DNA from: Anaerolineae bacterium
GTDB lineage: Bacteria > Chloroflexota > Anaerolineae > Aggregatilineales > Phototrophicaceae
Assembly: GCA_022841825.1 (NCBI GenBank)
Contig: JALHQT010000005.1
Location: 372,001 to 436,000 of the forward strand
Direction of reading: 5' to 3'
DNA: 64,000 bases
Part shown: positions 47,289 through 64,000 of the stretch, piece by piece
How the letters are laid out: each line of letters begins with the position of its first letter
Numbering within the stretch: the stretch's first letter is position 1
The notes under the pieces: model-generated
Told to the model about the DNA's origin: nothing
What the model saw: only the letters and a program-made list of their open reading frames with translations
Database searches by the model: none
Made by a program: the position numbers and the translations under genes

Positions 47289-48553
47289 TGTGGGGGCTAC
47301 TTCGCGTATCCGAGGGTAAAATGACGCCTCATGAGACTCGCCGATAGTTATGGTGCAGCCCACCCAGCACCGGAAAGGCAACGACCTGACCGTCTGAGAC
47401 TGCCTCCCCTTCCGATCGTCTCGATGCGATAGGAATGTGTCCCGACAGTCCTTGATGTGGACGAGCTGTATTGAAGTACACGACGTATTCCTTGACCACA
47501 CGCTGCAACTGTCGTTCGTTGAGCACCAGCATCTGGTCCAAACATTCCCGTCGCACACTCTCCAGGAACCGTTCGCACACTGCATTGGCTTTCGGTGCGC
47601 GGATGGGCGTCCGCAGCATCTCAATCCCACTCGCAACGCGTGCGAATTCCGCGCCATACTTCCGGTCGTTGTCACGCAGCAAGCAGCGCGGCCGCATATC
47701 AAAGGGCGTTGCTTCCCGCAGCTGCTGTGCCACCCACGCGTCGGTGGGGTGCGATGTCACCGCCCAGTGCACCACCCGGCGCGAGCCCACTTCAATGATG
47801 AAGAACACAAACAGCGTGCGAAACCAGAGGTCGTACGTTTGGAGAAAATCACATGCCCAAATGTCATGGGCATGGTTCTTCAGAAAGCTGCCCCACTTCT
47901 GACTCGGTTGTCCCTGCGGTGGCATCGGTCGGACCTGACGGATGTACTTGGCGACCGTGCGTTTCGAGAGGCGATAGCCCAGCTTCCCCAGTTCGTCGCG
48001 AATGCGTTTTGTGCCCCACAACCGGTTATCGCGTGCCATCGCCTGGATGAGACCGATCGCCTCTTCAGGGACACGCGGTTGCGCCGTCTTCGCTCGCGAT
48101 TTGTGACGCCAGAATAAGCGAAAACCCTGACGATGCCAGTGAAGCAGCGTCTCGGGTTTGACGATCAGCAGCGCCTCCCGCCATGTCCGCAGTTGGCTGG
48201 CGAGCATGACCAGCACACCGGGATCCAGGGGCGTGAGTACTGGGCGCTTTGTCTGGCGGTGGAGGATCAACAACTGCTGGCGCAAAAATGCGTTCTCAGC
48301 GATCAACTCGGACCGCTTGCGAGCCACATCGGCGAGCGTGCCGAGTACCAAAGTGGGTTGCGTCGGTCGGAAGCGTTTCTTGAGCTGCCGATCGAGTGTA
48401 GTGATCACAACAAGCAGCCACTGACGAATGACGGAACGGAGGCATTGCAGTCGCATGGAGTACCATTAGAGTCGGGCGTAGCGATGACGAATGGGCGAAT
48501 TGTAGCTGCGTTTCGACCCGACTCCAGCTCCGATAGCTCAAGTAGCCCTCACA
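47289..48553 (-). mobile_element. Complete family-2 IS element
   Basis: TIRs TGTGGGGGCTACTT (47289-47302) / AAGTAGCCCTCACA (48540-48553), 13/14. Confidence 0.88.
47329..48456 (-). CDS. Transposase (rve core), full-length relative of the 28157-29227 protein
   Basis: IWACDFLQTYDLWFRTLFVFFIIEVGSRRVVHWAV...VLGGLHHNYRRVS. Confidence 0.92.
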   Translation of the reverse strand: MRLQCLRSVIRQWLLVVITTLDRQLKKRFRPTQPTLVLGTLADVARKRSELIAENAFLRQQLLILHRQTKRPVLTPLDPGVLVMLASQLRTWREALLIVKPETLLHWHRQGFRLFWRHKSRAKTAQPRVPEEAIGLIQAMARDNRLWGTKRIRDELGKLGYRLSKRTVAKYIRQVRPMPPQGQPSQKWGSFLKNHAHDIWACDFLQTYDLWFRTLFVFFIIEVGSRRVVHWAVTSHPTDAWVAQQLREATPFDMRPRCLLRDNDRKYGAEFARVASGIEMLRTPIRAPKANAVCERFLESVRRECLDQMLVLNERQLQRVVKEYVVYFNTARPHQGLSGHIPIASRRSEGEAVSDGQVVAFPVLGGLHHNYRRVS

Positions 48554-48730: not shown

Positions 48731-49642
48731 TCATTCGAACGACAATTCTGCTTGCGCGAACGCTGTTTCCAACCATCCACGAATCTCGGCATACTTCGGG
48801 CTGCTCGCCTCAGGCAGCATCATCGGCTTACGGGGATAACCCGGCTCATACCCGCGTGCCGCCAGCGCCATGTGCGATGCGATCGTGCTGTCCGTGAAGT
48901 GCAGCTTGCCACTCAAGTCCATCATCAGCACATAAAGCGCTTCTGCACGCGCCATATCGCCGGAAGTGGTCGCTTGCACCAGCGCGGTGATAATTTCGGG
49001 AGCCCAGTTGCTCATGCCGCCAATCATGGCACGAATGCCCATCTGGTAGAACGGCAGCCAGCCTTTAGAAGTCCCCAGGATGAGCTGAAAGGGCTTGCCG
49101 CTGAGCTTGGTCTCATAGTAGACGCGGCTCACGAATCCCACATCCAGCGGGCTATCCTTCATGCCTGCCAGCCCCATCTCCTGAAGCTTACGAACGGTAC
49201 CGAGTGTGAATGAAAAGCGCGATGTCTCCGGATTGTTGTACGCAAAGACCGGAAGCCGCGTGGAGTCAATTAAGTCCTTGTAAAACTGAAGCACCAGGTC
49301 TTCTGCATGTTTGTAGTAGAAGGGGGGCACTGCACCCACAGCATCCATGCCAATGTCTTCTGCCGCGTGTGCCAGTGCGACGGTTGATGCGGTGTCGATG
49401 GCACCGACATGTGCGATCAGCGTCCGGTTCGAAAAAGCGCCTGCGACTTCTTTGGCGGTGCGGTACACGCTGACGCGCTCGTCGATCGTCATCATCGGTC
49501 CCGCGCCATAGGAACCCGTCAGGAAAAGTCCATCGACGCCGCGTTCGAACATCCAATGCATATGCCAGCGGGTCTTCTCCAGATCAAGCTGGCCATCGGC
49601 GGTGAAGAACGTGATATTGGGGACAAGCGAACCATGAATCAT
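48731..49642 (-). CDS. Dihydrodipicolinate synthase/N-acetylneuraminate lyase family protein
   Basis: GSLVPNITFFTADGQLDLEKTRWHMHWMFERGVDGLFLTGSYGAGPMMTIDERVSVYRTAKEV...PVFAYNNPE...GMKDSPLD. Confidence 0.88.
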   Translation of the reverse strand: MIHGSLVPNITFFTADGQLDLEKTRWHMHWMFERGVDGLFLTGSYGAGPMMTIDERVSVYRTAKEVAGAFSNRTLIAHVGAIDTASTVALAHAAEDIGMDAVGAVPPFYYKHAEDLVLQFYKDLIDSTRLPVFAYNNPETSRFSFTLGTVRKLQEMGLAGMKDSPLDVGFVSRVYYETKLSGKPFQLILGTSKGWLPFYQMGIRAMIGGMSNWAPEIITALVQATTSGDMARAEALYVLMMDLSGKLHFTDSTIASHMALAARGYEPGYPRKPMMLPEASSPKYAEIRGWLETAFAQAELSFE

Positions 49643-51144
49643 GCTGGATTCTCCTGAGATAGATTGAGCTTCTGGAGCTGTTGATTGAGAAGGCAGAAAG
49701 CCTTGTAACGCTTCTCGTACAGGGCGTGATGCAGATCATAGGGCACGATCTTCGTGCCGGGTTGGGCGAAGGACTCATAGCTTTCCGCAAGACCGAGCGT
49801 AAGCCATCCCAGGATTGCCGCGCCTCGACTCGAGGATTCGGGTGACGGCGGGACAATGACCGGTCTCCCAAGCACGTCTGCCAGTGTCGCCTGCATCAAG
49901 GGAGAGGCACTCAAGCCGCCGGTGACGAAGCTCGCGCGTGTTGCAGTGCCGTGCAGTGTTTCGACCCGGCGCACGATACGCAGCAAAGCGAATGCCAGCC
50001 CTTCCAGCGCAGCGCGGAAGACGTGACCGGTTTGGTGACGTAGAGTAAGACCATAGAGCAGCCCTTTCGCGGAGGGATTCCAATCTGGGCTTTGCTCACC
50101 GGACAAGTAGGGGATAAACAACAGGTCATCCGCGCCGGGTGCCACTGCTGAAGCAAGCCGCTCGGCGTCTTCGAATAACGTATCAGAGGCTTCGTCGGCT
50201 TTGTGTCCCAGCAGATCCTTCAGCAGCCAATCAATGACGATCCCACCGCTGCCCACGATGCCGCCAATCACCCAGCGATCGACATCCGCCACATAGGTCC
50301 AGAGGTGTCCCGCGGGGTCGGTCGCTGGCTGCGCGATCAATGCGCGAGCCGCCGCGCTGGTGCCGAGATTGATGGCGAGTGTCCCCGGCATCGTTGCGCC
50401 CGCCCCAATGTTTGCCAGCGGCGCATCCCCCGCACCAAGGATGAGCGGCAGGTGCTCCCGAATTCCGACGCTGGCACGAACATCGGCGCGCCACTCGCGC
50501 AGGATCGTGCGCGGCGAGGACAGCTCCGGGAGCGCGGACGTATTAATGCCAGCCAGCGTCAGCGCCTCGTCATCCCAGATCTTGCGTGTGATGTCAAGCA
50601 GCCCCGAAGCGGAAGCAGTGGACCAGTCTGTGATCCAGCGCCCTGTCAGGCGAAAGACGACATAATCTTTGATCGAGACATAACGCACCGTACCCGGCAG
50701 GTCGCCGTGCTGGCGCAGCCAATGAATCTTTGCGAGTGGGTAGATCGCCTGTGTCGGGCAACCGGTACGCGGCGCGAGCAAGGCGCTGGCACTCTGCCGC
50801 AGCGTGGCGGCACTCTCGGTCGCGCGCATATCCGCCCACGTCAGCACCGGCGTCAGCGGTTGACCCTCGGCGTCCACAGCCAGCAGGCTGTAGAGTTGTG
50901 TGCTCAGGACAACTGCTTCGAGCGATGCCTGCGCGGGTATCGCTGCTACGGCGCTGCGCAGCACCTTTGTGACGCTTGCCACGACGGCATCGGCGTCCAG
51001 CTCTGCCCAGCCTGGTTGGGGATAGCCAGTCGCAACCGAATCGCGCACCTGGAAGCCCGGCTGCGCGCGCTCGTCGAAGAGCAAGGCGCGCGCCCCGCTG
51101 GTGCCAATATCCACCGCCAGAATGAGCGGGGCGCGCATGCTCAT
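49639..51144 (-). CDS. FGGY-family carbohydrate kinase
   Basis: LAVDIGTSGARALLFDERAQPGFQVRD...GQPLTPVLTWADMRA...FVTGGLSASPLMQATLADVLGRPVIVPPSPESSSRGAAILG. Confidence 0.92.
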   Translation of the reverse strand: MSMRAPLILAVDIGTSGARALLFDERAQPGFQVRDSVATGYPQPGWAELDADAVVASVTKVLRSAVAAIPAQASLEAVVLSTQLYSLLAVDAEGQPLTPVLTWADMRATESAATLRQSASALLAPRTGCPTQAIYPLAKIHWLRQHGDLPGTVRYVSIKDYVVFRLTGRWITDWSTASASGLLDITRKIWDDEALTLAGINTSALPELSSPRTILREWRADVRASVGIREHLPLILGAGDAPLANIGAGATMPGTLAINLGTSAAARALIAQPATDPAGHLWTYVADVDRWVIGGIVGSGGIVIDWLLKDLLGHKADEASDTLFEDAERLASAVAPGADDLLFIPYLSGEQSPDWNPSAKGLLYGLTLRHQTGHVFRAALEGLAFALLRIVRRVETLHGTATRASFVTGGLSASPLMQATLADVLGRPVIVPPSPESSSRGAAILGWLTLGLAESYESFAQPGTKIVPYDLHHALYEKRYKAFCLLNQQLQKLNLSQENPA

Positions 51145-51153
51145 GATGCGCTG

Positions 51154-52299
51154 CTACCGCGCAGCCAAATACGAGCGCACGCCATCGCCCAGATATGCCT
51201 TCCAGACGACGAAGTTATGCGGGTGCTCCCAATCTAGATCGCCACCGAATAATTCGTGGAGGCGATTGCTGTTGAAAATCAGAGAGCCTTGATTGTCGAA
51301 GGTCATGCCATCAACCCAGATCATCCGGTCGTCGGTGATGAAGATCCGGTTTGTCCGAGTCGCTGGATCGTGAATGCCGATGCCTTTGCCTTCGAGCATG
51401 GTGTAGTAGATCAACCCCTTGTCGTCCGCGCCCATCCCATCCGTGTTGGTGCCCTTATCGCCAAGATCGATGACAGCGGCTTCGACGGCGCTCTCCGGAC
51501 TGCTGAAATCCCGCAGAACGCTCGTGTTGACGGCGTACAGATGGCGTGCAGTCAGGGCGCACCAATAGAGCATCTCTCGGTCAGCGGAGAGCGCAATGCC
51601 ATCCGCTCCGGTGCGCATCGGGCGATCTTTCCAGATCTTCTTGCCCGCGATCTCGAACCAGTAGCCAGGCACATCCTGCGTGCTGACATGTTGGTGAAGC
51701 ACGCGGCGCAGTTCTTTGCTGCGCATGTTGTAGATGATCAGTCCGCCTTCGAGCGGGTCCGTGAAGATGCCGGAGTCGGCGATGTAGACGAAGCCATTGG
51801 CGTTATCGACCACCAGGTCGTTCAGAAACGACGCTTGATAGGAAGCAATGTGATGCGGAATGGGGATCGACTCGACCAGCGTGTTGGTCGTCAGATCCCA
51901 GCAGACGATCTTTTGTGCCCCGTCAAGACAGGGCTGGCCTTCGATATGCCCCTGGTCGAGGAACCAGGCGCGGTTTAGCTCGTCGATTTCCCAGCCCAGC
52001 ACCGATTGCAGCGCATCCGGACGCCCGATCTCGTTCATCTCCCAACTGGGATAGGCGTTCAGCATCGGCTTGCCATCGACGACCTGGATACGATTGACGG
52101 TGGCGGGTATGCCGGGCGACCAGCGCGGCACCGAAAGGTAATAGTTCCCGTTGCGATCGACCTTGAAACCGGCAGGCATTGCGCCTTTCCAATACTCATT
52201 CTTCAAGAAGACTTCTTGGGCGGCGTCATCCGGAAACAGCCATTCCAGGCGACTCCAATGAAACAGGATTTCGTAGCTGCCGACGGCTGGAGTTTGCAT
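51154..52299 (-). CDS. Major royal jelly protein (MRJP/Yellow)-family protein
   Basis: AMPAGFKVDRNGNYYLSVPRW...FLNDLVVDNANGFVYIADSGIFTDPLEGGLIIYN...GADGIALSADREMLYWCALTARHLYAV. Confidence 0.8.
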   Translation of the reverse strand: MQTPAVGSYEILFHWSRLEWLFPDDAAQEVFLKNEYWKGAMPAGFKVDRNGNYYLSVPRWSPGIPATVNRIQVVDGKPMLNAYPSWEMNEIGRPDALQSVLGWEIDELNRAWFLDQGHIEGQPCLDGAQKIVCWDLTTNTLVESIPIPHHIASYQASFLNDLVVDNANGFVYIADSGIFTDPLEGGLIIYNMRSKELRRVLHQHVSTQDVPGYWFEIAGKKIWKDRPMRTGADGIALSADREMLYWCALTARHLYAVNTSVLRDFSSPESAVEAAVIDLGDKGTNTDGMGADDKGLIYYTMLEGKGIGIHDPATRTNRIFITDDRMIWVDGMTFDNQGSLIFNSNRLHELFGGDLDWEHPHNFVVWKAYLGDGVRSYLAAR

Positions 52300-52342
52300 G
52301 GGCGATAACCTCACAAGCGTGTCCGATAACGAAACAAGCCAT

Positions 52343-53323
52343 TTACTGTACTGCCGCGACGATTTTCCCGCGCACATGATGTCCGGCGAGTTCATTCAAG
52401 GCACTGGGGACTTCGGCAAGGTCAACAACTCGCGACAGCGTCGGGCGCAGCCTGCCGTCGTCGAGAAGCTTGCCAACCTCACGCGCGATCTCAGCCAGTT
52501 CGACCTGGGCTTTGCGGTCGCCGGAGAGATGCGCTACGCCCAGCGCAATTTCGTGCAGCGAAAGCGCTTTGGCGAAGGGACGGATTTTGCTGAGATCGGG
52601 GAGGCTGTCCACGCAGATCAGATGCCCGCCAAACGCTAACATCTCCAGGGCGGCGGTGGTCGTCTCCTGGCTCACGGCGTTCAGAATGACATCCGCGCCG
52701 CGCCCGCCGCTGATCTCTGAGATGCGTTGGGCGACATCTTCATTCTGGTAGTCGATGACGTGATCGGCACCCAACTGACGAACGTACTCATGATTGCGCG
52801 CGGATGCCGTCGTGACGACCTGCGCCCCCGCATATTTGCCAAGCTGAAGGGCATAACCTCCCACACCGCCTGCGCCGCCCTGAACGAGGAACAGCACATC
52901 GTTTCGCATCTGCACTTTGCGAAATATGCCCTGATACGCGGCGAAAGCAGAACATGGGACAGATGCAGCTTCTTCGAAGCTCAATGATGCAGGTTTGGGC
53001 GCGATGACATGGGCGGGGATGGTCGTGAGTTCGGCAAAACCGCCGCGACGGCTGAAATCCCCATGATAGTAAATGGCATCACCCGCTTTCCAGCCGGTGA
53101 CTTGCTCCCCAACAGCAGCGATGACTCCAGCGACATCCAGCCCCATGACGAATGGATACTGCCACTTGGGGTTGCCCCAGGCGGCTATCTTGTAATCGGC
53201 AGGGTTGAGACCGACCGCGTGGACGCGCACCAGCACCTCATCAGGCGCAGGAACAGGGGCGGGAAGGTTGGCGATGTACCAATCGCTGGGGTCGCCGGGG
53301 CGGTCGAGAACCAGTGCTTTCAT
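52343..53323 (-). CDS. Zinc-type alcohol dehydrogenase/quinone reductase family (MDR)
   Basis: APDEVLVRVHAVGLNPADYKIAAWG...VLFLVQGGAGGVGGYALQLGKYAGAQVVTTAS. Confidence 0.9.
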   Translation of the reverse strand: MKALVLDRPGDPSDWYIANLPAPVPAPDEVLVRVHAVGLNPADYKIAAWGNPKWQYPFVMGLDVAGVIAAVGEQVTGWKAGDAIYYHGDFSRRGGFAELTTIPAHVIAPKPASLSFEEAASVPCSAFAAYQGIFRKVQMRNDVLFLVQGGAGGVGGYALQLGKYAGAQVVTTASARNHEYVRQLGADHVIDYQNEDVAQRISEISGGRGADVILNAVSQETTTAALEMLAFGGHLICVDSLPDLSKIRPFAKALSLHEIALGVAHLSGDRKAQVELAEIAREVGKLLDDGRLRPTLSRVVDLAEVPSALNELAGHHVRGKIVAAVQ

Positions 53324-53363
53324 GAGCCGTATCCAGAAGCGCCAGTCAGTCTTGTCCAGTGAG

Positions 53364-53405
53364 ATTGTAACAACCAGGGTGATATGATGTCAACCTGTCA
53401 TGACA
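53364..53405 (-). promoter_or_regulatory. Operator copy 1 plus promoter of the leftward operon
   Basis: 20-bp TGTCATGACAGGTTGACATC (minus, 53386-53405) overlapping -35 TTGACA (53388-53393), 18-bp spacer, -10 TACAAT (53364-53369). Confidence 0.82.
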
Positions 53406-53458
53406 ATTTGTTTTGGTGCGACGAGGATGCCAGATGGCAGAGGTGAAGAGGTGGGAAA

Positions 53459-54202
53459 TTAGGGGACGCTGTGCTCGAACTGGAAGCGCGACTTGTCACC
53501 TCGCCGCCAAGCGGTGTAATACTCGATTGGAGCGCCGCTTTGTGTGTAAGCGGTGTTTTCGATGTACATGATCGGGAAGCCCGCTGGAATGCTGAGAAGC
53601 GCCGACACCGTCTCATTGGCGGCAATCGCTTCGATGACGCGCTTGACTCGTGACACAGGCGTCTTGTACACGTCCCGGAACGTCTGATAGAGCGAGCAGG
53701 TCCTGAAGTCGATTTCATTCAGGTTGGGAAACAAGCGGGCTGGTATGTAGGAATCGACGACCAGTATCGGCTGACTGTGGATGTAACGCAGGCGCTTGAG
53801 GAAAAAAATCTCATCCTGTGTTCGCAGGTCAAGCTCCTTACGCAGCGCGGGCGTTGGCGCGATGCGCGTCATCTCCATGACGCGCGTTTCGATGAGCAGC
53901 CCCTGCTTCGTCAGCGAGTCGCTGTAGCCGATGGCAGAGCCTGACCATGATTCCAGGTATTTGGGGTCTGCGACAAATGTCCCTCGTCCTTTTTCGCGGA
54001 GCAGCAGCCCTTCGTTGACCAGCGCATCCAGCGCCTCACGCACCGTGGTGCGGCTGAGTTGGTACATCTCACACAACTGATGTTCGCTGGGCAGTTGATC
54101 GCCCGCCCGCCACTGATCCAAACGAATTTCTTCGCGGATGATTTCGCGCAGTTGGTAGTGATAAGGCATCGGGCTTGATTTGTCGATCTGTCGGTTTTGC
54201 AC
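53459..54202 (-). CDS. GntR-family regulator with UTRA domain (HutC type)
   Basis: PMPYHYQLREIIREEIRLDQWRAGDQLPSEHQLCEMYQLSRTTVREALDALVNEGLLLREKGRGTFVADPK. Confidence 0.93.
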   Translation of the reverse strand: MQNRQIDKSSPMPYHYQLREIIREEIRLDQWRAGDQLPSEHQLCEMYQLSRTTVREALDALVNEGLLLREKGRGTFVADPKYLESWSGSAIGYSDSLTKQGLLIETRVMEMTRIAPTPALRKELDLRTQDEIFFLKRLRYIHSQPILVVDSYIPARLFPNLNEIDFRTCSLYQTFRDVYKTPVSRVKRVIEAIAANETVSALLSIPAGFPIMYIENTAYTQSGAPIEYYTAWRRGDKSRFQFEHSVP

Positions 54203-54392
54203 CGTCTACTGATCCTTCGTGAAGTGCCGCACCCTGTCAGCAGTGCCCCATTGTTCGTCACAACGAGTACATGAATACGTCTAACAGACTAATGCAGGTT
54301 CCTTGTGATGACAAGAGGACATATGCTGTGGGAGCGCTCTCCCAGGCGATATCGGGTAAATCAGGGGGATGTGTCATGTGTCGTCACCTAAA

Positions 54393-54441
54393 TGTCATGA
54401 CAGGTTGACATCTTGACAACATGACACAAGATGGCTATAGT
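54393..54441 (+). promoter_or_regulatory. Operator copy 2 plus promoter of the rightward operon
   Basis: Identical 20-mer TGTCATGACAGGTTGACATC (54393-54412) abutting -35 TTGACA (54413-54418), 17 bp, -10 TATAGT (54436-54441). Confidence 0.85.
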
Positions 54442-54524
54442 CTCAAAAATGGTGCAGAAGCGTGACACTTCGTGCTCCATAGACATTTCTTTCGTTGGTA
54501 AAGTGCGTTTAGGAATGAGCTGCT

Positions 54525-55256
54525 ATGTCTCTTAAAGTTGACCAGTGGCCTTACACCAACCCCCTTGTTTCCCCACTTTATGGCAAACCGCCGCTCGTCT
54601 GGCGCGATATGCGCGTGCAGTTGGTGGTTTACGAAACAGACATCGAAAACGTCGCCCGCGTAATTCCTGAGCCTCTTGAACCACGCTCCAACATCGTCAT
54701 CACCTGGGTCTCAGAGTTTCAACTCGGCACTACGCAGGGCGCGTTTGCTGAGTTCGCCGTTTATGTCCAGGTCAAGTACAAGGACTATGAAGGCGATTAC
54801 GAACCCTTCCTGTACGTCAACAACCATCTACCGCTGACGGGCGGGCGGGAAATCTGGGGCTATCAGAAGAAGATGGCGCAGATCAGCCTTCGGCATGAGC
54901 ACGAAGCCGTCATCGGGCGTGTTGATCGGCTGGATCACGCGATCTACAAAGGTCTGGTCGTCCCTGAGTACGAAGCGCAAATGAGCGAAGTACCCTGGAG
55001 TCCTCATGGCGTTTTCTCCCTCAAATACATCCCCGCGACCGAAGAAAACGGTACCCCTTTGCGTGAGCTGGTGCTGACGGAAGGCAAGTTCACCGCGCAG
55101 CCGGGCAAATTCTTCGGTGGGCGCGGCTCTGTCACCTATGAACGGTCTGAGATTGACCCCACCTACCTGCTGGAGCCGAAGCGCATCCTGGGGGGCTTCT
55201 TTGGTCAGGGCGATCTCTATCTGCCGCTCGGCAAAGTCGTCCACGACTATCGCTAG
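54525..55256 (+). CDS. Acetoacetate decarboxylase (ADC)-superfamily protein
   Basis: VQLVVYETDIENVARVIPEPLEPRSNIVITWVSEFQLGTTQGAFAEFAVYVQV...YVNNHLPLTGGREIWGYQKKMAQISL. Confidence 0.88.
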   Translation: MSLKVDQWPYTNPLVSPLYGKPPLVWRDMRVQLVVYETDIENVARVIPEPLEPRSNIVITWVSEFQLGTTQGAFAEFAVYVQVKYKDYEGDYEPFLYVNNHLPLTGGREIWGYQKKMAQISLRHEHEAVIGRVDRLDHAIYKGLVVPEYEAQMSEVPWSPHGVFSLKYIPATEENGTPLRELVLTEGKFTAQPGKFFGGRGSVTYERSEIDPTYLLEPKRILGGFFGQGDLYLPLGKVVHDYR

Positions 55257-55411
55257 AAAACTGGCACCTCTGCCAACCCGGCACGGGTGACCAGACAATA
55301 TCCCTCTGACAGAGTCGTTGTTACAGAAAGGAGATCGGCTTAAGAGGCGATATCGAAGCGCATCAAACAGTTTAGTTCTATTGTGCATTGTGTCTTGAGA
55401 GGAGATTGCGC

Positions 55412-56878
55412 ATGAACAGGATTCGGCTCTATGGGCTGATGCTGGTCCTCCTGATCGTATTTGTTTCTTTTGGTAGCGTCGCTGCGCAGGACGGGGTGAC
55501 TATCAACTGGGTCACCATCTCTGGTTTCTACACCGATTGGGCAGAGCAGGTTGCTGCCCGCTTTGAAGAAGATACGGGCATCAACGTAAACATCATTGAT
55601 GTGGACATCGGGCAGCTCTACGAAACACAGGTGCTCGAGTCGGTTGCTGATACCGGTGCCTATGACCTGCTGACGTACGATGCCGGACAGAAGGCGGAAT
55701 TTGCCGAAAGCGGCTACCTGCTTCAGATCGACGAGTACATCGCCGCGGCTGACCCGGAAGTGATTGCTTTTGAAGACATCGCTCCGGCACTGCGCGAGGT
55801 GACCAGTATGTGGCGGGGTGGCGTTTTCGGGCTGCCATACTACACCTTCACGATGGGTTACTTCTATCGCTGCGATCTGTTTGAAAACCCGGACGAAATG
55901 ACCGCGTTCGAAGCTGAATACGGTTATGCGCTGGGCATCCCCCAGAACTACGACCAGATGGCTGACATCGCCGAATTCTTCCGCCGCACGCCGGGCGAAA
56001 CACTTGCCGGGCAGGCGATTGAGCAGGACTTCTACGGTATTGGCGTGATGGCTGGGCGCTTCGACCAGGTGCAGGACGAAATCAACTCCATCGCATGGTC
56101 GAGCGGCGCGCAGGTCATCAACGACGACGGTACTCCTGGCGTCGATGATCCCGAATTCCTGGCTGCGGCTAATCTGTATGTCGACGAGCTGCTGCCGTTC
56201 GCCCCTCCGGGTGCACTCAGCTCTTCTTTTGACCAGATCGTCGCTCAAATGCAGCAGGGTCTGATCGCACAGACGGCGGCATTCTTCCTTGATCAGTATG
56301 CCAATATGGCGAAGACGGAAGACATGATCCCCGGAGCGCGCATCTGCACGGCTCCTGCTCCTGGCGTCCACTCATGGGTCGGCGCGTTTGGCGTCGGCGT
56401 ATCTTCGGACTCGACCCATCCGCAGGAAGCCTTCGACTTCCTGGCATGGATGGCGGGTGCAGAAGCGCAGCGCGAATTTGCGACTGGCGGCGGCACCACT
56501 TGCCGTACCAGCATTCTGACCGATACGGCGCTGATCTCCGAGAATCCACAGACGATGGGGCACTATCCGACGCTGGTCTCGGTGCTTGATCACACCGCAG
56601 CAGCCAACTTCTACCCCAACTATCTGTTCGTGCCGCAGGGTGGAAAGATCTATGATGAGATGACCACCTGGTATTCGACTGCGGCGGCAGGCGAAATGTC
56701 CGTGGAAGAAGCGATGGCGAACATGGCGACTGCCATTGAGCGTCAGTGCGGCGGTGCCTGCGAGATCGCCAACGAGGCACTCGGCGAGAATTATACGCCC
56801 GTCCCGATGCCGTTCGATTATGAAGCCTTTGTCGCCAGCCAGGCAAACGATATCGATGCCTGGATTGCGGCACAGTAA
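55412..56878 (+). CDS. ABC transporter extracellular solute-binding protein
   Basis: Signal peptide; VTINWVTISGFYTDWAEQVAARFEEDTGINVNIIDVDIGQLYETQVLESVA. Confidence 0.9.
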   Translation: MNRIRLYGLMLVLLIVFVSFGSVAAQDGVTINWVTISGFYTDWAEQVAARFEEDTGINVNIIDVDIGQLYETQVLESVADTGAYDLLTYDAGQKAEFAESGYLLQIDEYIAAADPEVIAFEDIAPALREVTSMWRGGVFGLPYYTFTMGYFYRCDLFENPDEMTAFEAEYGYALGIPQNYDQMADIAEFFRRTPGETLAGQAIEQDFYGIGVMAGRFDQVQDEINSIAWSSGAQVINDDGTPGVDDPEFLAAANLYVDELLPFAPPGALSSSFDQIVAQMQQGLIAQTAAFFLDQYANMAKTEDMIPGARICTAPAPGVHSWVGAFGVGVSSDSTHPQEAFDFLAWMAGAEAQREFATGGGTTCRTSILTDTALISENPQTMGHYPTLVSVLDHTAAANFYPNYLFVPQGGKIYDEMTTWYSTAAAGEMSVEEAMANMATAIERQCGGACEIANEALGENYTPVPMPFDYEAFVASQANDIDAWIAAQ

Positions 56879-56892
56879 CATTGCGCTGTCCG

Positions 56893-56915
56893 AGGGTGCA
56901 GCCGGGCTGCACCCT
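56893..56915 (+). other. Perfect 11-bp hairpin between SBP and permease genes
   Basis: AGGGTGCAGCC-g-GGCTGCACCCT. Confidence 0.8.
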
Positions 56916-56982
56916 CAACCTACACCTCATCGCCCGCCTGAACGAGGGGACAAACCTCGAAGGATCTAGAAGGAAAACTCCC

Positions 56983-57945
56983 ATGAGCACGGGTTCGGTG
57001 CCCTTACCAGACACATCAGTCAATGGCTCTACGGGTTCCAAGGCAAAACACAGGGCACTATCCGATACGCTGTACTCGGTGTTCCTCATCACCCCGGCGA
57101 TGATCCTGATCCTGATATTCGCCCTGGTTCCGTTGGCTTACGCAATTAATGTTTCATTCCGATTTGCCGACCTGACCAGCCCGCGCGGCGTCGCGGAGTG
57201 GGTCGGTCTCGAAAATTATCACTTTGCGCTGAACGATGCCTTCTTCTGGTCGTCTGTGCAGCGCACGCTCCATTTTGCAATCTTCGCGGTCGTCATCGAG
57301 ATGATCCTCGGCGTTGCGATTGCGTTTCTGCTAAACGATATTAAGTGGTTCAAAGGGCTGGCGCGCAGCCTCATCATCCTGCCGCTTGCCGCCTCGCCGT
57401 TCGCGGTCGGTTTGATCTGGCGCTACATGTACCATCCCGATTTCGGCGTCTTCAACTATCTGATTTCTCGCGTGGGCATTCCTGAACAGAACTGGCTTGG
57501 CAATTCCCAGATTGCGATGGGGAGCGTCATCGCCTTTGACGTGTGGCAGTGGACGCCATTTGTCGCCCTGATCGCGCTCGCCGGCTTGCAAGCGCTGCCA
57601 AAAGAGCCATTTGAGGCGGCTGCGCTGGATGGAGCATCTCGTTGGCGCGTGTTCCGCACGCTGACGTTCCCGATGCTGGCACCTGTCCTGACTTTGGTGC
57701 TGGTGCTGCGAACGGTTGACGCGGTGCGTTTATATGATGCCATTGTGTCGCTGACGGCGGGAGGTCCTGGCACTTCGACCGAAGTCCTGACGTTCTATCT
57801 CTACCGCCTGGGGATGCGCTTCTTCCGTCTGGATCAGGCAAGTGCGATGGCACTGCTGTTTCTCTATGCGACGGTGGTCTTCACCGGACTTCTGATGCGC
57901 CGCTTTATGCAGAACATGGCGGCACGCACGCGTGCCAAGCAGTAG
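56983..57945 (+). CDS. Carbohydrate ABC permease (MalF type)
   Basis: EAAALDGASRWRVFRTLTFPMLAPVLTLVLVLRTVDAVRLYDAIVSLTAGGPG. Confidence 0.92.
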   Translation: MSTGSVPLPDTSVNGSTGSKAKHRALSDTLYSVFLITPAMILILIFALVPLAYAINVSFRFADLTSPRGVAEWVGLENYHFALNDAFFWSSVQRTLHFAIFAVVIEMILGVAIAFLLNDIKWFKGLARSLIILPLAASPFAVGLIWRYMYHPDFGVFNYLISRVGIPEQNWLGNSQIAMGSVIAFDVWQWTPFVALIALAGLQALPKEPFEAAALDGASRWRVFRTLTFPMLAPVLTLVLVLRTVDAVRLYDAIVSLTAGGPGTSTEVLTFYLYRLGMRFFRLDQASAMALLFLYATVVFTGLLMRRFMQNMAARTRAKQ

Positions 57946-57956
57946 GAGAGTCAGAC

Positions 57957-58814
57957 ATGGAAACGCCCCGCATCACCGTCGGTATGGTCCTCCGTCACCT
58001 GCTTATGCTCTTCATCCTGCTGATCTTTCTGTTCCCCATCTTCTGGATGGTGTTGACTTCGTTCAAGCCTGCTGAAGAAGTTCTGACGCGACCACCGACG
58101 TTCATCTTCCAGCCGACCCTGGACAACTATCGCTATGCGTTTGAAGACGCGGATTTCTCGCTGTTCATCCGCAACACCATCGTCATCGCCGGGCTGTCCA
58201 CACTGTTGGTGGTAGTCTTCGGGTCGCTGGCATCGTACAGCTTCGCCCGCTACAACCCCGGCGACGGACACATCATGTTCTTCATCCTGACGACGCGCAT
58301 GATGCCGGGCATTGCCGTCGTCATGCCCTTCTTCCTGATCTTCCGCGACCTGGGAAAAACACCCTTTGGGCAAGCACTTGGATTGGGGTTGGATCAGGTT
58401 GGGTCGCTGGTGGTCGCTTACACGGTCTTTAATCTGCCGTTCGCGATCTGGCTGATGTTCTCCTTCTTCCAGGACATCCCGACCGAACTGGAGCACTCTG
58501 CGCGCCTGGATGGCTACAGCCGTCTGCAGGTGTTTTTGCGCGTGGTGCTGCCCCTTGCCGCGCCAGGTATCGCGGTGACAGCGATCTTCAGCCTGATGTT
58601 CGCGTGGAATGAGTTCCTGTTCGGGTACATCCTCACACGCGACGCCGCCCGCACCATCACGGTGGGCGTTTCGGGCTTTCAGACCCAACAGGGCATCTTA
58701 TGGGGACCGCTGGCGGCGGCGGCGGTGGTCTGCATCCTGCCCATGCTTGCAGTTGCCATGTTCTTGCAGCGATATATGGTGCGCGGACTGACGTTCGGCG
58801 CTGTGCGCGGATAG
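57957..58814 (+). CDS. Carbohydrate ABC permease (MalG type)
   Basis: LEHSARLDGYSRLQVFLRVVLPLAAPGIAVTAIFSLMFAWNEFLFG. Confidence 0.92.
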   Translation: METPRITVGMVLRHLLMLFILLIFLFPIFWMVLTSFKPAEEVLTRPPTFIFQPTLDNYRYAFEDADFSLFIRNTIVIAGLSTLLVVVFGSLASYSFARYNPGDGHIMFFILTTRMMPGIAVVMPFFLIFRDLGKTPFGQALGLGLDQVGSLVVAYTVFNLPFAIWLMFSFFQDIPTELEHSARLDGYSRLQVFLRVVLPLAAPGIAVTAIFSLMFAWNEFLFGYILTRDAARTITVGVSGFQTQQGILWGPLAAAAVVCILPMLAVAMFLQRYMVRGLTFGAVRG

Positions 58815-58829
58815 GAGACGGGAACTGTC

Positions 58830-59039
58830 ATGAACCTTTCACAAGCGTGGGATCGCATGTTCTGGGCGATCATGCTCACGATTTTCATCGGTTTAGTCTG
58901 GATGCGTTTCCTGCAGGATGTCGCGGCGTGTGAAGGTCCCGGGCTGCTCGTTGCGCTGACGGCTGGCGTTGTCTTCTTCGCGACCGGTTTCCGCCGCAAG
59001 TCATTGGCAGGTACTGCACACCAAGAGGAAGAAGCCTGA
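58830..59039 (+). CDS. Small two-TM protein in the transporter operon
   Basis: MNLSQAWDRMFWAIMLTIFIGLVWMRFLQDVAACEGPGLLVALTAGVVFFATGFRRK..., tightly packed between permease and ATPase. Confidence 0.65.
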   Translation: MNLSQAWDRMFWAIMLTIFIGLVWMRFLQDVAACEGPGLLVALTAGVVFFATGFRRKSLAGTAHQEEEA

Positions 59040-59042
59040 ATC

Positions 59043-60170
59043 ATGCTTGAGCTTCGCTCCGTCACCAAACGCTTTGGCAGCAAAACAGCCGTTCACCGAC
59101 TCAATCTGGAGTGCAAGCCCGGCGAGTTCGTGGTCATCTTCGGTCCTGCGGGCGCGGGAAAGAGTACGACCCTCAACCTGATCGCTGGGATCACTGATCC
59201 TACCGAGGGTGAAATCTGGTTGAATGGGCAGCCGCTCAACCGAGTGCCGCCGGAACACCGCAACATGACGATGGTGTTCGAGAACTACGCGCTCTATTCT
59301 CATTTGACGGTCTTTGACAACCTCGCGTTTCCGCTGCGGGCGCAGCGAATGCCTTCGGCAGAGATTGCGCGCCGTGTGGATGAGATGGCTGCAATCCTGC
59401 AGATCGGACCATTTCTCAAGCGTCGCCCTGGCTTCCTGAGCGGCGGGCAGCGCCAGCGTGTGGCACTTGGGCGTGCGCTCATCCGCGATGCCGACGTGTA
59501 TCTGCTCGACGAGCCGATCTCCCATCTGGATGCCAAACTGCGCCATCAGATGCGCGGCGAGCTGAAAGCGCTCTGCCAGCGCAAGCAGGCGACGGTCATT
59601 CATGTCACTCATGACTACCGCGAAGCGATGTCGCTCTCGCACCGGATGGTCGTCATCGATAAAGGGCATCTGATGCAGTTCGATACGCCGGATGCCATCT
59701 ACCACACGCCCGCCAATGAGTTCGTCGCCAGCTTTGTCGGCGAACCGCCCATGAGCTTCATCGATGTCAAGCTCACGACGCGCGACGGTGCGCCCTGCCT
59801 GCTGATCACGGGTACGGAAGCGCAGCCCGCCATCGTCAGCCTGGGGGATGCTGCCACAGCCGCGCTCGCGGAGAATGCGAACGCGCTGCGCATCGGAGTG
59901 CGTGCCAGCGATATTTCTCTTAGCACGACCGCCAGCGCGAGCCACGGGACCCGTGCTGAAGTCTACGTGGTGGAGACGCTGGGGCATCGGGACATTGTGA
60001 CGACCCAGATCGGCACGCACCTTGTCAAGGTGATTGCGCCTTCTGGTCTGGGATTGCAGGTTCGCGACACGGTATGGCTAAACATCGAACCCCACACCTA
60101 TCACCTGTTTCGTGACGAGCAGTCCATCTCGCATCCGACAGACGAGATGCGTATCGCGCAAGGAGTGTAA
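59043..60170 (+). CDS. ABC transporter ATPase (MalK/UgpC-like)
   Basis: IFGPAGAGKSTTLNLIAG...LSGGQRQRVALGRALIRDADVYLLDEPISHLD. Confidence 0.92.
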   Translation: MLELRSVTKRFGSKTAVHRLNLECKPGEFVVIFGPAGAGKSTTLNLIAGITDPTEGEIWLNGQPLNRVPPEHRNMTMVFENYALYSHLTVFDNLAFPLRAQRMPSAEIARRVDEMAAILQIGPFLKRRPGFLSGGQRQRVALGRALIRDADVYLLDEPISHLDAKLRHQMRGELKALCQRKQATVIHVTHDYREAMSLSHRMVVIDKGHLMQFDTPDAIYHTPANEFVASFVGEPPMSFIDVKLTTRDGAPCLLITGTEAQPAIVSLGDAATAALAENANALRIGVRASDISLSTTASASHGTRAEVYVVETLGHRDIVTTQIGTHLVKVIAPSGLGLQVRDTVWLNIEPHTYHLFRDEQSISHPTDEMRIAQGV

Positions 60171-60175
60171 GCCGC

Positions 60176-61273
60176 ATGGCTACCGTTCGTCTGCACCATC
60201 TCCATAAGAGCTATGATCGCGGCAAGACAATGGCAGTGAAAGATGTTTCACTGGAAATCGCCGATGGCGAATTCATGGCGCTGTTGGGTCCATCGGGCTG
60301 CGGCAAATCATCCACAATGCGCATGATCGCCGGGTTGGAAGAGTTGTCCGGGGGTGAAATCTGGTTCAACGATACGCTGATGAACCGCATTCCCCCCAAG
60401 GGTCGCAATGTCGCGATGGTGTTTGAGTCATACGCGCTTTACCCCACGTTGAGCGTCTACGAAAACCTGGCTTTTCCGCTGCGTTCGGCAGGGAAGCCCC
60501 TTGACGAGATTGAACGCCGCGTTCGCGAGATCGTCGGCATTTTGCAGTGCGAAGACCTGCTGCAACTGAAGCCTGCCAATCTGAGCAGCGGGCAGTCGCA
60601 GCTTGTAGGGCTAGGTCGCGCGCTCATGCGCCAGCCAAACGTGTTCATCATGGATGAACCGATCTCGCATTTGGATACGCGCCTGCGCAGCCGGATGCGT
60701 TCCTATATCAAGCGTCTGCACATCGAACTGGGCTACACGATGCTGTATGTCACGCACGATCAGGAAGAAGCGATGGCGCTTGCCGACCGGATCGCCATCA
60801 TGGATGTCGGTCAGGTGGTGCAGATCGGCACGCCGGGGGAAGTCTTTCACCAACCTGCCAGTCGCTACGTTGCGGGTTTCGTCGGCGAACCCCCGATGAA
60901 CTTCCTGGAATGCCAGACCGAGCAGAATGGCGGCAGCCCAAGCTTGTCATACAAGGGACATCCTATCCCTTGGGGAAGTTCTGAACATACGCGCGCGGCG
61001 GGACAAGTTCCGCGCGATGTCGTCGTCGGCATCCGACCCTTCTACGTAAGCCTTGCAGGCGAGCGCAGCGCTTCGCACAACGTACCCGCCGAGGTGTTCG
61101 TCGTGGAGCCAATGGGGGACACGACGGTCGTCACCGTCAAGGCGGAGGACACACGTATTCAGATTGTCGGCGAACAGAAGATGCGCGTGAACAGCGGAGA
61201 GGTCTTGTGGCTGGGCTTTGACCCGGCGCACCTGCTGCTGTTCGACAAAGATACAGGCTTACGCCTGGGATAA
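60176..61273 (+). CDS. ABC transporter ATPase (MalK/UgpC-like)
   Basis: LLGPSGCGKSSTMRMIAGLEELSGGEIW...LSSGQSQLVGLGRALMRQPNVFIMDEPISHLD. Confidence 0.92.
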   Translation: MATVRLHHLHKSYDRGKTMAVKDVSLEIADGEFMALLGPSGCGKSSTMRMIAGLEELSGGEIWFNDTLMNRIPPKGRNVAMVFESYALYPTLSVYENLAFPLRSAGKPLDEIERRVREIVGILQCEDLLQLKPANLSSGQSQLVGLGRALMRQPNVFIMDEPISHLDTRLRSRMRSYIKRLHIELGYTMLYVTHDQEEAMALADRIAIMDVGQVVQIGTPGEVFHQPASRYVAGFVGEPPMNFLECQTEQNGGSPSLSYKGHPIPWGSSEHTRAAGQVPRDVVVGIRPFYVSLAGERSASHNVPAEVFVVEPMGDTTVVTVKAEDTRIQIVGEQKMRVNSGEVLWLGFDPAHLLLFDKDTGLRLG

Positions 61274-61290
61274 TGATAAGGAAAGTCACG

Positions 61291-61992
61291 ATGGCTGAAC
61301 AGACGCTCTCCTCGCGCGAGATCGCCAGCATGATCGACATCAGCGCGGTACAGACGCCGCATGGCGAGGCGGAGATTCGGGAACTGGTCAATGTCGCATC
61401 TCAGTTTGGCATTGGCGCGGTTCATGTCCTGCCCGCGTGGGTGACGTTTGCGCGCACGCTCCTGGCAGACACGCCGCATATCGCGCTCGGCGCACCGGTC
61501 GGGTTCCCTTCCGGAGGCAATCATACCCGCATCAAGTATGAAGAAGCGCAGCAGGTCATCGCCGATGGCGTCAGCGAGTTCGACATGATGCTCAATGTCG
61601 GCAAGCTGCGCTCCGGCGACGACGATTATGTGCGGACAGAATTGCAGACGGTCATTCAGTCGGTGCGCGTCCCGGCAAAGGTCATCCTGGAAACGCATTA
61701 TCTGAACGATGACGAGATTCGCCGTGCTTGCCAGATGGGCATTGAAACGGGCGCTGCCTACATCAAGACATCGACCGGTTGGGCAGATACCGGGGCGACG
61801 TTTGAAAATGTCCGCCTGATCCGCGATTGTGTGCAGGATCGCATTGGCATTAAAGCTGCGGGCGGCATTCGTGACCTTGCGACGCTGGAGGCGATGTACG
61901 CGATGGGTGTCCGGCGTTTCGGCATTAATGTGCAGGCAGCGATTGCCATCATCCAGGCGGCTCGCCAGCGCGATGTGGAACACGGCTCATGA
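61291..61992 (+). CDS. deoC: Deoxyribose-phosphate aldolase (DeoC) family
   Basis: EFDMMLNVGKL...KVILETHYLNDDEI...GAAYIKTSTGWADTGAT...IKAAGGIRD, Schiff-base lysine context. Confidence 0.9.
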   Translation: MAEQTLSSREIASMIDISAVQTPHGEAEIRELVNVASQFGIGAVHVLPAWVTFARTLLADTPHIALGAPVGFPSGGNHTRIKYEEAQQVIADGVSEFDMMLNVGKLRSGDDDYVRTELQTVIQSVRVPAKVILETHYLNDDEIRRACQMGIETGAAYIKTSTGWADTGATFENVRLIRDCVQDRIGIKAAGGIRDLATLEAMYAMGVRRFGINVQAAIAIIQAARQRDVEHGS

Positions 61993-63518
61993 CAACGCTA
62001 ATCGCCTATGATCTCGGCACAGGAGGGTGCAAAGCGTCGCTCTATGATGCGGATGGGACTGCGCTCGCCTCGGTCTTCCGCGCCTATGATACGCTTTACC
62101 CGAATGCTGGCTGGCACGAGCAGCGTCCAACAGATTGGTGGGATGCCGTCGTCTCCAGCACGCGCGAGCTGCTCGCGAGCGGCTCTGCGGATGCGAGTTC
62201 GGTGCGCGCACTGGCGCTTTCCGGGCAAAGTCTCGCGGTCGTACCGCTGGACGGCGCGGGCAATCTGCTGCGGGATACAGTGCCCATCTGGTCGGATACC
62301 CGCCCGGTCGAACAGGTGCAGCGCTTCTTCCAGCAGGTGGATGCCGACGAGTGGTATCTGACGACGGGTAACGGGTTCTCGCAGCCCACCTACTCCGTAT
62401 TCAAGATCATGTGGTATCGCGAACAAGAACCCGACATGTTCTCGCAGCTCCACAAAATCGTCGGCTCCAAGGATTACATCAACTACCGGCTGACGGGGCA
62501 GATCGCTACTGATCATTCGTATGCATCCGGGAGCGGCACCTATAACCTGGCGACACGCGCCTATGACACACGCTATCTGGCAGCCAGCGGCTTGTCGATG
62601 TCTCTCTTCCCGGAAATTGTCGAATCTGCGACCTCGCTTGGCGGTCTGACGGCGGAAGCGGCGGCGGCGCTCGGACTGCCCACATCGGTCGAGGTCTTCT
62701 GCGGCGGTGTGGACAATTCGTGTATGGCGCTGGGTGCAGGCAATACGCGCACCGGGCGCATCTATCTCTCGTTAGGCTCGTCTGCGTGGCTGGCGGTCTC
62801 GTCAGAACAACCGGTGGTCGATCTTGCGATACGTCCGTTCGTCTTCGCGCATGTCATCCCGAATCTGACGACATCCGCAACCTCGATCTTTGCCGCAGGC
62901 AGTGCTTTTCGATGGGCGCGTGATGTCCTGTTTGCGCAGATGAAACAGCGAGCGCTGGAAAGCGAGCGCGATGTCTACGACCTGCTTGTTGACCTGGCGA
63001 TGCAGTCGCCGATTGGCGCCAACCGCTTGTTCTTCAATCCTAGCCTTGCGGGTGGATCTGCGGCGTATGCAAACCCGGATATTCGCGGCGCATTTCTGGG
63101 GCTGGATCTCCGCCACACCGCGTCCGATGTGCTGCGCGCGGTCCTTGAAGGAATCGCCTTCGACCTGTGCATCATGTATCGCAAGCTGGCGTGCCTGGTT
63201 GAGCTTGACGACACGATCCTGATCGTCGGCGGGGGCAGCAAGAGCCAACCATGGCGTCAGTTGTTTGCGAATGTCTTCGACAAACCCTTCGCGCGCGCCA
63301 GCAGCGGGCAGGACGCTGCCTCGCTTGGGGCGGCAGCGGTGGCAGCGGTGGGCAGCGGACTATGGAAGGATTACGAGCGAATCGAGCAGTTGGTGCAGTC
63401 CGATCAGGTCGAGGTGCCGGATGCGGCTTCATCGACACAGTACCGGTCGCTTCTGCGTGTCTATGAACAGACATGGTCTCATCTCTCCGAAATCGCCGAC
63501 CTGATGAAAACGCTTTAG
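61989..63518 (+). CDS. FGGY-family carbohydrate kinase
   Basis: LIAYDLGTGGCKASLYDADGTALASVFRAYDTLYPNAGWHEQRPTDWWDAVVSS...VGGGSKSQPWRQLFANVFDKPFARASSGQDAASLGAA. Confidence 0.93.
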   Translation: MTTLIAYDLGTGGCKASLYDADGTALASVFRAYDTLYPNAGWHEQRPTDWWDAVVSSTRELLASGSADASSVRALALSGQSLAVVPLDGAGNLLRDTVPIWSDTRPVEQVQRFFQQVDADEWYLTTGNGFSQPTYSVFKIMWYREQEPDMFSQLHKIVGSKDYINYRLTGQIATDHSYASGSGTYNLATRAYDTRYLAASGLSMSLFPEIVESATSLGGLTAEAAAALGLPTSVEVFCGGVDNSCMALGAGNTRTGRIYLSLGSSAWLAVSSEQPVVDLAIRPFVFAHVIPNLTTSATSIFAAGSAFRWARDVLFAQMKQRALESERDVYDLLVDLAMQSPIGANRLFFNPSLAGGSAAYANPDIRGAFLGLDLRHTASDVLRAVLEGIAFDLCIMYRKLACLVELDDTILIVGGGSKSQPWRQLFANVFDKPFARASSGQDAASLGAAAVAAVGSGLWKDYERIEQLVQSDQVEVPDAASSTQYRSLLRVYEQTWSHLSEIADLMKTL

Positions 63519-63567: not shown

Positions 63568-64000
63568 ATGTATGATTTGAAAGCCTGCCGTGTGCTTGTG
63601 ACTTCAACGTCCTATGGAATGAGTGATCCCTCGCTGAAGCGCGAGCTTGAGCAGACGGTGGGCGAAGTCCTCTACAATCCGACGGATCACCCGCTCACTT
63701 CTCTGGAACTCGCGCCGCTGGTCAAGGGCATTGACGGCATGATCGCCGGATTAGACGAAATCAGCGCGGAGGTCATTGAGAGCGCAGATCGACTGCGTGT
63801 CATCGCTCGCTACGGGGTTGGTTTGGACAGAGTCGATCTGAAGGCGGCACAGAGCAAGGGAATCGTCGTCACCAGCACGCCGGGCGCAAACGCGGTGTCG
63901 GTTGCAGAACTCGCTGTGGCATTGATGTTGGCACTGGGGCGCAACATTGTGATTGGGGACAGGCGCACCAAAGCCGGCGAATGGCCCCGCATGAAGGGAC
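63568..64000 (+). CDS. D-2-hydroxyacid dehydrogenase (3' end outside window)
   Basis: VLVTSTSYGMSDPSLKRELEQTVGEV...GMIAGLDEISAEVIESADRLRVIARYGVGLDRVDLKAAQSKGIVVTSTPGANAVSVAELAVALML. Confidence 0.9.
   Translation, partial: MYDLKACRVLVTSTSYGMSDPSLKRELEQTVGEVLYNPTDHPLTSLELAPLVKGIDGMIAGLDEISAEVIESADRLRVIARYGVGLDRVDLKAAQSKGIVVTSTPGANAVSVAELAVALMLALGRNIVIGDRRTKAGEWPRMKG

Follow-up and report, generated by a model that had tools for sequence, protein, structure and literature searches.

A likely HutC-type GntR/UTRA repressor of a divergent sugar-catabolic regulon in an Anaerolineae bacterium, predicted to act through a palindrome extended by phased half-sites

Among solved structures, the best match to the regulator described here is NagR (YvoA) of Bacillus subtilis, a GntR/HutC repressor of GlcNAc utilisation in which Arg38 reads G-5 and Arg48 reads G-4 of the operator (PMC4333415). 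A survey of the HutC subfamily that included no HutC regulator from Chloroflexi (Suvorova 2015, PMC4494728) describes GT-N4-AC palindromes, divergons in which double sites lie close to each operon, and a preference of HutC proteins for Arg-G pairing. For GntR families, it also reports weaker additional half-site boxes at 7-12 nt from the centre of the site, the function of which was left open. As cited in that survey, FarR and NagQ are HutC regulators that read direct repeats. Finally, looping between palindromes has been shown for Atu1419 of Agrobacterium fabrum, a tetrameric GntR repressor of the FadR type (PMC7797058).

The window analysed here (the whole 64,000-nt stretch of DNA) carries a GntR/UTRA gene between two divergent operons, with the following genes.

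48731-49642, minus strand: DHDPS/KDG-aldolase family protein, last gene of the left operon
49639-51144, minus strand: FGGY kinase, gluconokinase-like
51154-52395, minus strand: MRJP/SMP-30-like beta-propeller protein
52343-53323, minus strand: zinc-type alcohol dehydrogenase/quinone reductase family protein, first gene of the left operon
53459-54202, minus strand: GntR/UTRA (HutC-type) regulator of 247 aa (Pfam UTRA PF07702, 2e-34, and GntR PF00392, 8.4e-20, both above cutoffs)
54525-55256, plus strand: acetoacetate-decarboxylase-family protein, first gene of the right operon
55388-61273, plus strand: sugar ABC transporter (binding protein, two permeases and two MalK/UgpC-type ATPases)
61273-61992, plus strand: DeoC-family aldolase (above the NCBIfam cutoff)
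61989-63518, plus strand: FGGY kinase, xylulokinase-like
63568-64000, plus strand: start of a D-2-hydroxyacid dehydrogenase gene that continues past the window end

This gene content agrees with the original prediction made from the letters of the window, and the right operon extends beyond the window with the 2-hydroxyacid dehydrogenase and one more ORF. The latter, at the operon's end, encodes 343 aa without a Pfam match (L093:1559-2590, about 64559-65590 in window numbering). Directly after the left operon lies an integrase-core (rve) transposase-like gene (47329-48456), possibly the mark of a mobile or rearranged boundary. For most enzymes of both arms, the best NCBIfam matches fall below cutoff. 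A tentative pathway, drawn from family names only, would consist of oxidation, lactone opening, beta-keto-acid decarboxylation, kinase and aldolase steps, with the MRJP/SMP-30-like protein as a possible lactonase; this major-royal-jelly-protein family member is 75-81% conserved in the cluster across four relatives.

The regulator was correctly placed by the original prediction between the two copies of a shared 20-mer; its gene points left and lies between the promoters. The protein combines an N-terminal GntR winged helix with a C-terminal UTRA domain, as expected for the HutC subfamily, and the palindrome found at both operons, TGTCATGACA, reads T-GT-CATG-AC-A, with GT and AC 4 nt apart. The central TA of the HutC consensus (GTMTAKAC) is replaced by AT in both operators, which does not exclude HutC membership, since the central TA is a preference with reported exceptions (PMC4494728).

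Orthologs of the decarboxylase with 82-90% identity were found in four Anaerolineae/Chloroflexi MAGs (G002, G013, G024 and G096), and further relatives of this protein occur in other phyla. Most other genes of both arms co-occur in the same four genomes, even though G024 and G096 have their arms rearranged to lie on the same strand, and this supports one shared pathway. Orthologs of the GntR protein (67-70% identity) are present in G002, G013 and G024 only. In MAGs labelled Acidimicrobiia, Desulfobacterales, Lachnospiraceae and Eubacteriales (L066, L067, L069 and L070), a decarboxylase of 70-78% identity and parts of the gene set occur without the operator, which suggests that the gene set has spread horizontally under other regulators.

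A scan of the window returned the 20-mer, TGTCATGACAGGTTGACATC, in exactly the two opposite-strand copies that had been predicted, at 54393-54412 (plus strand) and 53386-53405 (minus strand). In a search of the whole genome (5,908,712 bases) at up to 3 mismatches, only these two copies were found, both at the cluster, so that the sequence is not frequent elsewhere; the chance expectation at the same threshold, from the shuffled window, was 0.01 matches, and the reversed 20-mer, as a control, gave 0 matches in the 5,908,712 bases. The two predicted promoters, TTGACA-N17-TATAGT (54413-54441, plus strand) and TTGACA-N18-TACAAT (53393-53364, minus strand), were likewise recovered, each agreeing with the sigma70 consensus at 11/12 positions. 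Two details required revision. The first copy had been described as overlapping and the second as abutting its -35, but the arrangement is the reverse, the plus-strand copy abutting and the minus-strand copy containing its -35. Moreover, the operator had been given as a 20-bp element, whereas the conserved unit is a 10-bp palindrome with 8-bp-phased TGACA half-sites. The elements are as follows.

53364-53369, minus strand: -10 of the left operon, TACAAT, spacer N18
53388-53393, minus strand: -35 of the left operon, TTGACA, the TGACA of which is also the +8 half-site of O1
53396-53405, minus strand: O1, core palindrome of the left operator, TGTCATGACA, with its centre at about -44 from the predicted start of the left operon; conserved in the relatives G002, G013 and G024
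54304-54313, minus strand: O2, putative autoregulatory operator before gntR, TTGTCATCACAA on the gene's strand, 1 mismatch to the palindrome
54393-54402, plus strand: O3, core palindrome of the right operator, TGTCATGACA, centred at about -51; conserved in G013 and G002, 1 mismatch in G024
54406-54426, plus strand: three further TGACA half-sites with an exact 8-bp period (54406, 54414 and 54422), the middle one within the -35 TTGACA (54413-54418)
54436-54441, plus strand: -10 of the right operon, TATAGT, spacer N17

O2, which reads TGTGATGACA at 54304-54313 and was absent from the original prediction, coincides in part with the -35 of a candidate promoter for gntR that consists of a -35-like TTGTCA, N17 and TAGTCT, with a weak -10. 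In 4/4 genomes, a palindrome overlaps the gntR -35, and each of the three relatives has it as TTGTNATNACA-N17-TAnnnT. Within 53280-54600, no structure resembling a terminator was detected, so that transcription of gntR may read through into the left operon.

The operator unit thus described comprises a 10-bp HutC-type palindrome (GT-N4-AC) followed by TGACA half-sites every 8 bp: the right half of the palindrome, then +8, +16 (within the -35) and, in three right arms only, +24. In seven of the eight arm promoters, the distance from the start of the palindrome to the -35 TTGACA is exactly 20 bp. The left arm of the window is the exception, having one 8-bp unit fewer and its -35 in the +8 slot. 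This slot is empty in two left arms, and the +8 unit of the right arm is kept in all four genomes; in 6/8 arm promoters, the +8 TGACA and the palindrome have their centres about 10.5 nt apart. The left copy of the 20-mer can be aligned to the relatives only with an 8-bp gap; the left operator's loss of one 8-bp unit relative to them is what lets the two copies in the window agree across 20 bp, and the TTGACATC parts of the 20-mer accordingly differ in role from one copy to the other. The 20-mer itself was ruled out as the operator unit, since the relatives retain the palindrome and phased half-sites without it. Recent duplication from one promoter to the other is unlikely, as the similarity stops at the end of the 20-mer and each arm is conserved separately.

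Compared with the operators of the HutC survey (PMC4494728), these share the GT-N4-AC palindrome, the double sites of a divergon and a first extra half-site at about 10.5 nt from the centre, within the 7-12 nt range, but differ in having AT rather than TA at the centre. They also go beyond the extra half-sites reported there, with up to three in a strict 8-bp register, one of them fused to the -35, and a change by one whole 8-bp unit between species. FarR and NagQ, as the survey cites them, similarly use direct repeats as recognition units; unlike theirs, the repeats here extend a perfect palindrome. As with Atu1419, identical 10-bp palindromes occur at several promoters of one catabolic regulon, the regulator's own included, although Atu1419 has an FCD effector domain and the protein here a UTRA domain. 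The switch protein is ordinary in kind, while the layout of its repeats is unusual and conserved.

That the TGACA units merely overlap -35 boxes or reflect chance duplication, with regulatory meaning limited to the palindrome, is a natural objection, given that TGACA makes up most of the -35 consensus TTGACA and one unit per promoter would be expected regardless. We examined this in a sister GntR clade (about 37% identity), in which 19 distinct TGTNATNACA palindromes near gntR were available. TNACA is found at +8 in 12/19 of these and at +16 in 5/19, and at any other offset at most once. Wherever an example was read in its entirety, a TATAAT-like -10 immediately precedes the array; no -35 is expected at that position, and the array is thus not produced by -35 boxes. 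Together with the near-empty other offsets and the right-arm +8 unit retained in all four genomes, this makes the objection unlikely to hold. We tentatively suggest, as a possibility on the doubtful side, that the array accommodates a cooperative row of GntR subunits on 8-bp-phased half-sites, nucleated by the palindrome, instead of a single dimer, with the -35 TTGACA as one rung and the number of rungs setting the strength of repression; the number of rungs does change by one whole 8-bp unit between species.

The combination TGTNATNACA-N3-TNACA gave 9 matches in four genomes, 7 of them in the regulon cluster. Extension of the regulon to the three other genomic TGTCATGACA sites, one inside an ORF, one preceding a sigma-factor gene and one preceding a TIR-domain gene, was rejected, as none has a +8 half-site. 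The second of these (L103:2808; C1:1298307 in the organism's own genome) lies without an array between a B12-binding/radical-SAM gene and the gene for a sigma-70-family factor. The third (L105:2780; C7:98779) lies just 5' of the gene for a TIR-domain protein, also without a half-site array, and probably arose there by chance. Literature titles searched for TGTCATGACA returned no paper on a GntR operator.

Based on this arrangement, we infer that the GntR protein binds these sites and represses the genes downstream. A dimer would occupy the palindrome, and further subunits or dimers may fill the 8-bp-spaced TGACA half-sites downstream into the promoter, where occupation of the half-site within the -35 TTGACA would block RNA polymerase; on the gntR -35, the imperfect O2 would provide autorepression. 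The constant position of the palindrome, 20 bp before the -35 in 7/8 promoters with its centre at about -51, could instead indicate that the protein acts from a fixed upstream position as an activator, or as activator and repressor both. We regard this as improbable. Perfect TTGACA hexamers at the -35 should function unaided, the half-sites extend past the -35 in the direction of the -10, the operators before gntR sit on the -35, and the sister-clade array follows the -10; in addition, NagR, the nearest characterised relative, is a repressor (PMC4333415). For these reasons, repression is the best-supported reading. The 8-bp displacement of the left operator of the window, less than a full helical turn, also argues against activation. 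Overall, we consider it likely that a HutC-type GntR/UTRA repressor governs this divergent sugar-catabolic regulon through a palindrome and half-site arrays.

Several lines of sequence comparison connect the site to this particular protein. The palindrome TGTCATGACA stands before both arms in G002, G013 and G024, with 1 mismatch at the right arm of G024. Right-arm identity is 70-80% over a block of 50 bp from the palindrome and 12-39% over the remaining intergenic DNA; in the left arm, the corresponding values are 62-64% for the 50-bp operator block and 29-32%. The comparison of both intergenic regions thus finds the site at both arms of the three relatives with GntR orthologs, amid diverged DNA, the orthologous regulator-site pair being confined to four genomes, three of them of one genus. 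In G024, the GntR gene lies on another contig and has CTTGTCATGACAAG in its own promoter (the form TTGTCATGACAAG is given for such a moved gene). The rearranged arms and relocated GntR gene of this genome (L043 and L042) each carry their own operator. Conversely, G096, which has the operons and no GntR ortholog, has no site upstream of the decarboxylase or transporter genes, nor does any of the other decarboxylase loci fetched, within the DNA examined.

Residues of the protein also vary with bases of the operator. Where NagR has Arg38, the window protein has His41 (its clade, His or Asn), and base -5 of the operator is T; the counterpart of Arg48 is the conserved Arg51, and G-4 is retained in the operator. 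Among de-duplicated GntR homologs with a clear upstream palindrome, position -5 is G in 6/6 with Arg and T in 22/22 with another residue (Fisher p=2.7e-6, an optimistic value as the homologs are related), in agreement with the Arg-G preference of HutC proteins (PMC4494728). Direct repeats could in principle be read by some other direct-repeat-binding factor with the GntR gene merely adjacent, but this is highly improbable given the site at the unlinked G024 ortholog, the joint absence of site and ortholog from G096, the covariation of recognition residue and -5 base, and the same palindrome and array at the gntR genes of the sister clade. The original prediction of a single regulon is thereby strengthened, the site being confined to the cluster genome-wide, and the GntR/UTRA protein very probably controls both operons and its own gene through the shared site.

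With respect to NagR, the protein shares the GntR and UTRA domains, the GT-N4-AC palindrome and the DNA contacts Arg48 and Gly69. The phosphate ligands T90, R133, R135, S165 and Y167 of NagR correspond to S94 (a conservative change), R137, R139, S170 and Y172. In contrast, V149 and R233 stand where NagR has its sugar contacts E145 and Y228. The GGTCTAGACC-like operator of NagR/DasR, with G at -5, is not found here, T standing at -5 and His41 in place of Arg38. Also unlike NagR, a perfect palindrome is joined to a direct half-site array, and the regulon belongs to a different sugar pathway. The window regulator is thus NagR-like in mechanism, but is not a NagR. Because the phosphate residues are kept and the sugar contacts E145/Y228 replaced, the protein probably responds to a phosphorylated sugar or sugar acid different from GlcNAc-6-P. 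We infer that this effector is made by the two FGGY kinases, and as the likely inducer, it would relieve repression.

These results predict which regulator and which DNA code govern a previously uncharacterised set of sugar-catabolic genes in the Chloroflexota. They also provide a clean example of covariation between residue and base, Arg with G and non-Arg with T at -5, and offer a testable explanation for the extra half-sites near many GntR operators.
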